Position numbers and translations under genes: made by a program
Notes under the pieces: model-generated
Database searches by the model: none
What the model saw: the letters and a program-made list of their open reading frames with translations, nothing else
Told to the model about the DNA's origin: nothing
Assembly: GCA_026400835.1 (NCBI GenBank)
Contig: JAPLOA010000093.1
Location: 1-64,000, forward strand
Origin: Planctomycetales bacterium
GTDB taxonomy: Bacteria > Planctomycetota > Planctomycetia > Planctomycetales > Planctomycetaceae
DNA: 64,000 nt
Direction of reading: 5' to 3'
In this document: one piece after another, positions 40,432-42,897 of the stretch
Layout of the letters: each line of letters begins with the position of its first letter
How positions within the stretch are numbered: the stretch's first letter is position 1

Positions 40432-41898
40432 TTACGCGAACAGTTCCTTCACGGCCTGGCCCTTGCCATCCTGAGTCACGTAGAATGGGCGACCTTCGAT
40501 ATCAAATCCAGCCTGAGGACTGATGCCCATCGCGGTCATGATCGTTGCGTGAAGGTCGGCAATGGAGACAGGATTCTCAACGGCAATCAGAGGTCTCTGA
40601 TCGGCAGTCCTGCCATAGACGAAACCGCGCTTCATCCCGCCGCCAAACATGACAACGTTGGTCCCGCCGGTAAAATGACGATGCAGTCCATAGTGCTTCA
40701 TTTCGGATACGGCTTCAACTCGTTCCGTCGCCTGGTCGGCCGCATTAGAGCCAGGAACCCCTTCGATCAGAGCGTCCCGACTGAACTCCGAAGCAATAAC
40801 CACCAGAGTTCGATCCAGAAGACCACGGAGTTCCAGATCTCTGATCAACTGCGCGATGGGCTGATCCATTTCTGAATGCATGCGTGCCAAAGTTTCATGC
40901 CCATTCGCATGAGTATCCCAGTGCAGAAACGGAACATACTCTGTTGTAACTTCAACAAACCGAGTCCCGGCTTCGACCAATCGACGAGCCAACAGGCAAC
41001 CACGCCCGAAGCGACTGTTGTCATAAAGCTTGCGGCTTTCTTCGGGTTCGAGGCTGATGTCAAAGGCTTCGCGATCTTTTGAACTCAGCAATCGATAAGC
41101 GTTGTCGAGAGACCTCAGCATCGACTCCTGCTGATAGTCGCTCATGAATTCGCGTTGAGGACTCTGATCCACGAGACGGCGGAACAATTTGTTCCGACTG
41201 GAAAATCGATCGCTGGTCATCGCACCCGGCGGACGAACAGATTGAGCTGCGTCTTCTGGAAACGGAAGATTCATCGGACCAAATTCTGATCCAAAGAATC
41301 CGGCCGTCGTGAATGCCTTCAACTCTTCGCTTTCCCCGACTCCTTCCAGTCGCTGTCCCACATTGACGAACGCCGGCATGACAGGATTCACGGAGCCCAA
41401 AATGCGAGCCATCCAGGAACCAATATGAGGACAGGCTACGGTCTGCGGGGGCACATAACCGGTGTGCCAATGATACTGGTGCCGAGAATGCAGGATGCTT
41501 CCCAGATCCGGCTGAACCGCAGAGCGAATCAGCGTGGCACGATCCATTACAGAGGCGATCTGCTCCAGCCCTTCGCAAATCTTAAGACCACTCACCGCAG
41601 TGTCGATCGCGGGAAAAGTGCTCAGCATATCTTTGACGGGCAGCCCCACTCGAAACGGCTCATAGTGTTTCGGATCGAACGTATCCGGAGCGGCCATACC
41701 GCCACCCATCCAGATCAGGATGCAAGCGTCGGCCGTTGGCCTCGGGTGGACGGCATTGAGATTCACCTCTCCACGAAGCTGGCGAGGAGCGGACGCCGCC
41801 AAAGCGGCCGTCGATGCAGCCGCCATGGTCCGCAAAAAATCACGTCGCAGAACACTTTCGGGAACACTTGAGTCATTCAGGAACTGCACGTTGAACAC
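40432..41898 (-). CDS. DUF1501 protein, Tat-exported partner of the PSCyt/DUF1553 protein
   Basis: 488 residues, GTG start; a second GTG at 41889 is possible. The twin-arginine signal is LRRDFLRTMAAASTAALAAS. DUF1501 motifs are ILIWMGGGMAAPDTFDPKHY, FVEVTTEYVPFLHWDTHANG, GLLDRTLVVIASEFSRDALI and GGTNVVMFGGGMKRGFVYG. The gene precedes the PSCyt/DUF1553 gene with a 56-bp gap on the same strand, the usual two-gene operon. The enzyme fold is sulfatase/phosphatase-like, but the catalytic formylglycine cysteine motif of true sulfatases is not present. Confidence 0.88.
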   Translation of the reverse strand: MFNVQFLNDSSVPESVLRRDFLRTMAAASTAALAASAPRQLRGEVNLNAVHPRPTADACILIWMGGGMAAPDTFDPKHYEPFRVGLPVKDMLSTFPAIDTAVSGLKICEGLEQIASVMDRATLIRSAVQPDLGSILHSRHQYHWHTGYVPPQTVACPHIGSWMARILGSVNPVMPAFVNVGQRLEGVGESEELKAFTTAGFFGSEFGPMNLPFPEDAAQSVRPPGAMTSDRFSSRNKLFRRLVDQSPQREFMSDYQQESMLRSLDNAYRLLSSKDREAFDISLEPEESRKLYDNSRFGRGCLLARRLVEAGTRFVEVTTEYVPFLHWDTHANGHETLARMHSEMDQPIAQLIRDLELRGLLDRTLVVIASEFSRDALIEGVPGSNAADQATERVEAVSEMKHYGLHRHFTGGTNVVMFGGGMKRGFVYGRTADQRPLIAVENPVSIADLHATIMTAMGISPQAGFDIEGRPFYVTQDGKGQAVKELFA

Positions 41899-42254
41899 TC
41901 CGCTTAATGACGGATCCGGAACAGCACATCTGAAACACAGCCGAAATCGCTTTTCAGAGATGGATCACTATAGCCGCATCGCTGCGGCAGGTCACATCTG
42001 GCAAACAGGCTTTTCAGATCGTCAACGCGATTTGATGGCTCACGTCCAAACTTACACATTCACGGCCCAGAGTCCTGAAAACGCAGCCGACCACTCGTAA
42101 ATTTGTAAAAACTGCAATGCCCCGTCGTTGTAAGAATTGCAATTCCATCCCTCAACGGTGTTGCGGAAACGCTGCGAAGCAACTCAACAACAAATCAGCA
42201 GACAATCATAAACATTTACTGCGATTACACTTAAATCAATTCGCGACTCAAATC
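41899..42254. other. Intergenic DNA upstream of the hairpin-rich RNA region
   Basis: Divergent from the DUF1501 gene. No coding frame was recognised. The promoter for the proposed RNA (42255-42500) should lie here, but no convincing -35/-10 pair could be fixed by eye. Confidence 0.4.
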
Positions 42255-42500
42255 CACATCGTTGCTCGGGTATTGTGAGAGGTCTTTGGCACGGACCGTG
42301 CTATCTATTTCTTTCGAGAGAGACTTGGGCTCGGAGTGAGATCCTTGAGCCCAAAACGTAGCCTTGAGAAAGCTGCGTATTTCTGAGAGAGACGGTGGCT
42401 CGCCTGAGAAACGAGCCCACAAATTTGAGCGAGTGCCTGAGAAACCTCGCTCCCTGAAAAAGGCCATCGGAATCAGAATGATCCGATCGGCCTTTTTTCT
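42255..42500 (+). ncRNA. Putative structured RNA: serial hairpins with CYTGAGAAA loops and a terminator
   Basis: Four good hairpins follow each other. TTGGGCTC/GAGCCCAA (42325-42332, 42347-42354) has an inner GGA/TCC pair and loop GTGAGA. ACGTAGC/GCTGCGT (42356-42362, 42372-42378) has loop CTTGAGAAA. GGCTCG/CGAGCC (42397-42402, 42412-42417) has loop CCTGAGAAA. GAGCGAG/CTCGCTC (42427-42433, 42446-42452) has a loop containing CCTGAGAAA. The blocks TTCGAGAGAGAC (42313-42324) and TTCTGAGAGAGAC (42381-42393) precede hairpins 1 and 3, so the RNA looks like two modules. An intrinsic terminator follows at once. The 5' end is not known. No protein frame explains the pattern. Confidence 0.6.
42457..42498 (+). 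terminator. Intrinsic terminator of the hairpin-rich RNA
   Basis: GGCCATCGGA (42462-42471) pairs with TCCGATCGGCC (42482-42492) with one bulged C. It is preceded by five A and followed by six T and a T-rich tail (TTTTTTCTTTTTCC). Confidence 0.9.
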
Positions 42501-42810: not shown

Positions 42811-42897
42811 GGGATAGTCGCAAACTCGCAGCTTCAAGCCTGACGCATCGAGTTGTTTCGGTCACCCAAACAACAACCCTGGAAATCAGCAAGCCGC

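Follow-up and report, generated by a model that had tools for sequence, protein, structure and literature searches.

A conserved multi-hairpin RNA with UGAGA loops and a sigma-54-type promoter in one planctomycete family, possibly a decoy for an RNA-binding protein

The window analysed here, the whole stretch of 64,000 nucleotides, contains a reverse-strand open frame starting at 41898 and a forward-strand open frame starting at 42853, which we take to be of DUF1501 type and metallophosphoesterase type, respectively. Between them lies a series of hairpins with unlike stems and near-constant loops, which a sequence-only reading had attributed to an RNA whose loops are recognised by a partner. 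This raises the questions of whether such an RNA exists, how it would be switched on and what its loops would bind. A 78-aa frame on the reverse strand (42231-42467) overlaps the hairpins. It was not taken for a gene, since the lengths of the homologous RNAs (137-158 nt within the genus) differ by non-multiples of three.

The predicted transcript is a free-standing RNA of about 185 nt on the forward strand (42315-42498), delimited by covariance-model matches, folding and covariation, with a start that is inferred from the promoter spacing. It consists of two GAGAGAGAC linkers, four hairpins and a terminator of its own. The first GA linker (CGAGAGAGAC, 42315-42324) stands ahead of hairpin H1 (42325-42354), which has the stem TTGGGCTC/GAGCCCAA and the loop AGTGAGATC at 42335-42343, and H1 is followed by H2 (42356-42378; stem ACGTAGC/GCTGCGT, loop CTTGAGAAA). 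The second GA linker (CTGAGAGAGAC, 42383-42393) stands ahead of H3 (42397-42417; stem GGCTCG/CGAGCC, loop CCTGAGAAA). H4 (42427-42452) has the stem GAGCGAG-T-G/C-CTCGCTC and again the loop CCTGAGAAA, which is closed by a single G-C pair above the bulged T. Each of the four can be taken as a loop of 9 nt in which UGAGA occupies positions 3-7. The linkers were identified by reading the sequence and in the alignments termed A3 and A6 below; the hairpins are indicated by sequence, folding and covariation, and H3 additionally by a single-hairpin model. An intrinsic terminator, recognised by reading and folding, forms the end (42457-42498). It is a GGCC-rich stem-loop followed by T6 which was missed by a simple pattern scan; its stem has a bulge.

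Direct reading thus confirmed the four hairpins with unlike stems and near-constant loops, and the two near-identical blocks ahead of H1 and H3 as well as the terminator are present where they had been expected. The interval originally delimited (42255-42500) contains the RNA but starts too early, as 42255-42314 represents upstream and promoter sequence. When 42315-42500 is folded, all four hairpins and the terminator are present in the best structure, and the energy of -70.3 kcal/mol (shuffles -51.7 +/- 4.1; z = -4.5) was reached by none of 200 shuffled sequences. The longer segment 42200-42510, which had been suggested for folding, is also more stable than all of 100 shuffles (z = -3.1), but its best structure keeps only H1 and H2 and re-pairs H3 and H4. 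No Rfam 15 family matched anywhere in the window at the gathering score, as had been anticipated, and a relaxed search of 461 bases returned six matches, all far under the family cut-offs.

BLASTN detected one copy of the RNA in its own genome and further copies in relatives of the same genus; three matches (L013, L015, L016) that are limited to the terminator end of the query were dropped. The sequence from the window and 12 others align from promoter to terminator, with altered stems and retained loops. A covariance model (R1), built from 15 sequences, matches in 33 of 170 genomes of the family. In two of these (G004, G015) the match is not the RNA but a related leader of a pilin-like gene, which leaves 31 genomes from six genera in which stems have changed and loops have been kept. 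Pilin-like leaders also account for the second matches on C98 of the window's own genome and on C245 of G017. The weakest match that was retained (G091, E = 0.0035) was kept because promoter and palindromes, described below, occur at its locus. Among 392 genomes from the whole phylum there are three matches including the window's own, all from this one family. A seventh genus was added by the single-hairpin model (G021; R1 E = 0.008 in a small search). At its locus L248 lies a small relative that has a sigma-54-type promoter and one or more UGAGA hairpins, and GTGAGAT occurs within the loop of the terminator hairpin. A pattern scan of contigs returned 37 stretches, nine of which are contigs of this group, and the four stretches examined from outside the group contain no such RNA. 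One matching contig (L059, CAMAVB010000020.1) is a metagenome-assembled one titled Candidatus Kuenenia stuttgartiensis, a record name that looks wrong.

The stems change on both sides in the aligned homologues. In a MAFFT alignment of 15 sequences (A3), two-sided changes occur in 16 of 30 pairs (shuffles 8.6 +/- 1.7) and 92.1% of the cells pair. Four of five covariation measures beat every shuffle, while the fifth, which counts further pair types, is not above them (158 of 500 shuffles reach its value). A second alignment (A6) has 31 rows, which are 30 of the 31 genomes (G140, cut by the contig end, was omitted) plus G021. Here, 27 of 30 pairs show two-sided changes (shuffles 19.4 +/- 1.9), 92.5% of the cells pair, and none of 500 shuffles reaches any of the five measures; as A6 was fitted to R1 it is biased towards the R1 structure, and A3 gives the same answer, if a weaker one. 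When the partner is slid by one base in A6, pairing falls to about 43%. RNAalifold on A3 favours a different register for H1.

The loop is the constant part, with a consensus of 9 nt, mostly [CA]NUGAGA[AGU][AC]. The number of loop hairpins varies: the window RNA has four copies, relatives usually have three to five, and one extra hairpin is found in each of four loci (L018, L020, L021, L022). In the most divergent homologue (L109 of G091) one loop reads CCGGAGAAA and contains GGA. The claim that the loops are recognised by a partner is well supported, judging from the homologues, the two-sided stem changes and the lack of a matching Rfam family, with which three of the checks set by the sequence-only reading were passed. 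In 23 loci for which the gene neighbourhood was compared, one gene recurs in nine, on either side, and none in more. As the neighbouring genes mostly differ, the RNA probably acts in trans.

The sequence-only reading did not mention the promoter or the two palindromes described next. A sigma-54-type -24/-12 promoter (TGGCACGGACCGTGCT) is found at 42287-42302 on the forward strand, and the loose form of this pattern occurs in all 31 homologous loci, compared to 1.1% of 6200 background windows. The strict form occurs in 24 of the 31 loci and in none of the 6200 windows. In 27 loci, the -24/-12 element (GG[CT]A ... TGC) is located 27-28 nt before the RNA. As the loci are related, this and the other counts are not independent.

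Further upstream, two TTGTAANNNTTACAA-like palindromes (TTGTAA-N3-TTACAA) occur about 130-190 bp above the promoter, again in 31 of 31 loci (best copy with at least 10 of 12 bases, second copy with at least 9). They are putative sites of an enhancer-binding protein. In the window, these are TTGTAAAAACTGCAA at 42103-42117 and, 25 bp from it, TTGTAAGAATTGCAA at 42128-42142, both given on the forward strand, with centres roughly 180 and 205 bp ahead of the inferred RNA start. The spacing is 25 bp in 22 of the 31 loci and 24, 26 or 35 bp in the others. Single palindromes occur in 0.7% of background windows at 10 or more matching bases and in 1.6% at 9 of 12. Exact copies of TTGTAANNNYTRCAA are found three times in the window's own genome, two at the RNA and one inside a gene. 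Three copies were also found of the backwards control pattern, so that the number of copies is at chance and only the pair at this locus is remarkable; the third copy (on C34), inside a coding frame, was taken as chance. As R1 begins at the RNA, promoter and palindromes are independent of the way in which the loci were found. We read this pattern as a likely sigma-54 promoter with a dedicated enhancer-binding protein. At the other end of the RNA, a G/C-then-T-run pattern is found downstream in 29 of the 31 loci. It is very likely that this is a real, conserved, multi-hairpin RNA of sigma-54 type, for which no named family was found.

What the loops might bind is suggested by their recurrence elsewhere. 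The single-hairpin model (R2) was built from 58 hairpins. As three of these came from pilin-like leaders, the matches in such leaders are partly a matter of construction; no stop-codon hairpin was included. Since the hairpins were selected for containing TGAGA and for pairing, the invariance of these five bases in alignment A4 is no proof by itself. In 18 genomes of the genus, R2 has 63 matches at E<=0.1: 34 in the RNA, 14 in leaders of pilin-like genes, another 14 across the stop codon of a gene for an HTH-receiver protein and a single isolated one in an open frame.

The pilin-like leader carries at least one UGAGA hairpin, usually behind a GA linker in the leaders examined. The hairpins are located about 130-560 nt (once about 1200 nt) before the start of the pilin-like gene and not at the ribosome-binding site. 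They were found in 15 of the 18 genomes, one of which is counted at E = 0.15. A sigma-54-type site is present by pattern in 10 of 14 leaders; L125 has a variant and the other three are incompletely covered. The protein is short and has a prepilin-like start (MLNLLKALRQDEHGVILSAEIVIVG...). No Pfam or NCBIfam name was obtained for the members scanned, and "pilin-like" is our reading of the N-terminus. When the leader was used as BLASTN query, 14 of the 170 family genomes matched and the pilin-like frame follows in all 14.

Outside the genus, the pilin-like protein has matches in 24 of 30 genomes (E <= 0.001). The family is large, with up to 17 matches per genome and a G-x-[IV]-x-S-x-E-like start. 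From these 24 genomes 30 loci were inspected, which represent some but not every pilin-like gene per genome: eight carry the hairpin, seven of them with a sigma-54-type site, and 21 do not. A hairpin match at L210 is AT-rich and was dropped. The eight loci come from four genera, two of which (g45, g57) have no R1 match. In genus g61, where seven genomes have the RNA, the motif is found in none of six pilin-like loci examined, a hairpin search of the whole genomes returned no pilin-like leader at E<=0.3, and for two genomes (G081, G142) the pilin search itself gave no match. The pilin-like gene is thus not a target in every genome with the RNA.

The HTH-receiver gene carries the motif at its other end. 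In 14 of the 18 genomes of the genus, its last codons and the stop codon supply the 5' side of the hairpin as well as some of the loop. Changes on the coding side are matched on the 3' side; in L170, where TTG is replaced by ATG, the partner is altered accordingly. Pfam assigns HTH_17 and Response_reg to the copy from the window's own genome. This stop-codon hairpin was seen in this genus only and is absent among the R2 matches in 20 other genomes of the family.

Other R2 matches are scattered. Above E = 0.1, 11 matches outside the leaders were examined in the genus, and 7 of these are in a same-strand open frame of at least 80 codons while 4 are not. In the 20 other family genomes, 15 matches outside the RNA and the leaders were examined: 10 fall within open frames of 90 codons or more and the remaining 5 do not. 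In the 600 bases upstream of these matches no sigma-54-type site was present, and no gene was seen to recur. We hold these weak matches to be due to chance, without proof.

CsrA, known for binding GGA loops, is a candidate for the partner, even though the loops in the window lack GGA. It is found in all of 15 genomes, with 6-17 matches each and nine in the window's genome, one of them at C76:71101-71256, 7 kb past the end of the window. Eight of the nine proteins start with MLVL[ST]R and one with MLVLRR. The second strand reads VHR[QE]E, as in ordinary CsrA, in three of the nine, and the others diverge there. Hfq (PF17209) was found in none of the 15 genomes; the control search was positive in 5 of 14 named genomes. 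A loose sigma-54 site is present within 170-245 bp upstream of one of eight own csrA genes; an enrichment of sigma-54 promoters at csrA-type genes of Planctomycetia is reported in PMC12316311.

We propose that the RNA is a trans-acting decoy (sponge) which titrates an RNA-binding protein off the mRNAs of the pilin-like and HTH-receiver genes, a reading to which we assign a probability of about 50%. It builds on the conservation and covariation of the RNA, on promoter pattern, palindromes and terminator, and on the motif common to two messages; from these we infer transcription, an activator, a protein, titration and the direction of regulation. A dedicated sigma-54 activator would bind the two TTGTAA-N3-TTACAA palindromes and switch on transcription at about 42315, and RNA polymerase would halt at the intrinsic terminator near 42498. 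The transcript would present several 9-nt loops with the core UGAGA together with single-stranded GAGAGAGA linkers, and the protein may recognise GA linker and UGAGA loop as one element. Normally, this protein would occupy the leader of the sigma-54-driven pilin-like mRNA and, in this genus, also the hairpin across the stop codon of the HTH-receiver mRNA. Once the RNA is made, the protein would be titrated off both messages and the expression of surface appendages would change.

The RNA and the mRNAs carry the motif in the same sense and so do not pair with each other through it, which makes a third party that binds the motif the simplest link. A free RNA with many copies of the motif beside messages with few has the layout of a decoy. 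The chance that it serves as a decoy for a protein which also binds the pilin-like leader seems about even to us. Our best guess for the protein, at about one in three, is a CsrA paralogue, of which there are many, that prefers loops different from GGA. Under the wider proposition, this would be the first sponge RNA of the Planctomycetota and stand at the centre of an RNA-binding regulon not described before: a protein for UGAGA loops and GAGA linkers, probably a re-specialised CsrA paralogue, would control the pilin-like leader and a genus-specific HTH-receiver regulator, and the activator of the RNA would serve almost nothing else, as its palindrome has one other exact match in the own genome, inside a gene. 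This is put forward tentatively, at odds somewhat short of even.

A partner of the loops could also be a nucleic acid. In a base-pairing sRNA, CYUGAGAAA loops and GAGAGAGA linkers would find their complements in numerous mRNAs, at sites that resemble UUUCUCAGG or are rich in pyrimidines. The loops occur repeatedly and are single-stranded, the strong conservation of the motif is what a seed would show, and base pairing is possible in the absence of Hfq. Yet both the pilin-like leader and the stop codon of the HTH-receiver gene carry the motif in the same sense, in which it is unable to pair with identical loops, and a single seed would not need four unlike stems with one loop. Of the two partners offered by the sequence-only reading we therefore favour the protein, while target RNAs with TTTCTCAGG-type sites appear to have gained no support from the sequences. 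We consider base pairing unlikely. An ordinary sponge of CsrB/RsmZ type for ordinary CsrA would fit the many hairpins, the distance of the palindromes from the predicted start (some 180 and 205 bp) and the 6-17 CsrA matches per genome. It is not supported by the loops themselves, which are UGAGA while CsrA is known for GGA: this core is missing from loops 2, 3 and 4 in the window RNA and in all aligned sequences except G091, and where a part of the homologues has GGA beside loop 1, it is lost in L023-L028. This makes such a sponge quite improbable.

The GA box and hairpin could instead act as a nut or ANTAR site from which a factor is loaded onto RNA polymerase for processive antitermination or attenuation. 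A linear GA box with a hairpin is indeed common to the RNA and the pilin-like leaders, and the leader in the own genome is long and looks structured. In the RNA, by contrast, the modules vary in number and run straight into the terminator, with no conserved gene behind it in most loci, and we rate this explanation lower again. Least of all do we expect a ligand-binding cis-regulator of tandem riboswitch type. Conserved repeated loops on variable stems resemble tandem aptamers, but the loops are short (9 nt) on single stems with no other conserved core, no downstream gene is consistently conserved, and the RNA has its own promoter and terminator; this explanation is very improbable. The decoy for an RNA-binding protein thus is our preferred reading, as the pilin-like leader and the end of the HTH-receiver gene repeat the motif in the same sense.

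By analogy, the logic of the proposed decoy seems closest to that of CrcZ and CsrB. CrcZ is a decoy which titrates Hfq/Crc through A-rich linear motifs. CrcZ, CrcY and CrcX of Pseudomonas have a sigma-54 promoter and a dedicated enhancer-binding protein, CbrB, for which several subsites are spaced at 20-25 bp in the upstream region, as described in PMC6296734. The planctomycete RNA shares the sigma-54 promoter and upstream enhancer palindromes, as far as sequence patterns indicate; it differs from CrcZ in that Hfq was found in none of 15 genomes and that its motif is UGAGA on hairpin loops. In CsrB, CsrC and RsmZ, one loop motif is repeated on many hairpins whose stems vary. For E. coli csrB, a UvrY palindrome centred at -183/-182 is described in PMC4682653. 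Similarly, the planctomycete RNA has a shared exposed loop motif on variable, covarying stems and a palindromic activator site far upstream, and CsrA is abundant in the genomes examined. It differs in its UGAGA loops without a GGA (ANGGA) core, in its sigma-54-type promoter, in its GA linkers and in the phylum. As the RNA lacks a defining feature of either system (Hfq for CrcZ, GGA for CsrB), it was filed under neither.

Other systems bear comparison in part. GlmY is under sigma-54 control and is not known to have repeated loop modules. Together with GlmZ and RapZ it is treated in PMC7073468 as a decoy sRNA for an RNA-binding protein. The proposed decoy role and sigma-54 control are common to it and the planctomycete RNA, while the repeated loop modules are not. 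In ANTAR targets (NasR, EutV), paired hairpins are read by an RNA-binding regulator and have hexaloops with A1 and G4. The planctomycete loops do not follow this hexaloop rule, as they are of 9 nt with UGAGA and occur in several copies. The Rhodopirellula-1 motif (Weinberg 2010, PMC2864571) is listed as a candidate structured RNA from Planctomycetes and Proteobacteria, with no Rfam number in its table row. The RNA described here was found in a single planctomycete family (3 of 392 genomes of the phylum, including the window's own). Among the papers listed from the open-licence literature, none describes such a regulatory RNA in Planctomycetota.

Should the decoy reading be correct, the RNA would probably soak up a protein that controls surface structures, as CsrB does with another motif. 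The CsrB principle, in which many loop copies titrate a regulator, would then exist with a different loop code. It would also provide a handle on the role of the many CsrA-like proteins in a family in which CsrA has multiplied, with a defined RNA element, a switch (sigma-54 and one activator) and a message (the pilin-like gene).

Additional structure was seen in both types of leader. The pilin-like leader of the own genome (L105 on C98) has a further stem region (GTTCGTCCGACGCGAGAAGGGG...CCCCTTTCTCGCTTCGGGTGAGCGAAC) past the UGAGA hairpins, which is conserved in L106-L108. The HTH-receiver gene has a long, conserved and apparently structured 5' leader (GGGGAGGCCAGGAAGCACA...AACGGAAGGGATGTCCGGA...), about 350 nt upstream in L165 (C86 of the own genome), which has no match in Rfam. 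It is also present in L141, L144 and L155, and the leaders of L141, L145 and L148 contain a CACGG[CCTGAGAAC]CGTG hairpin.
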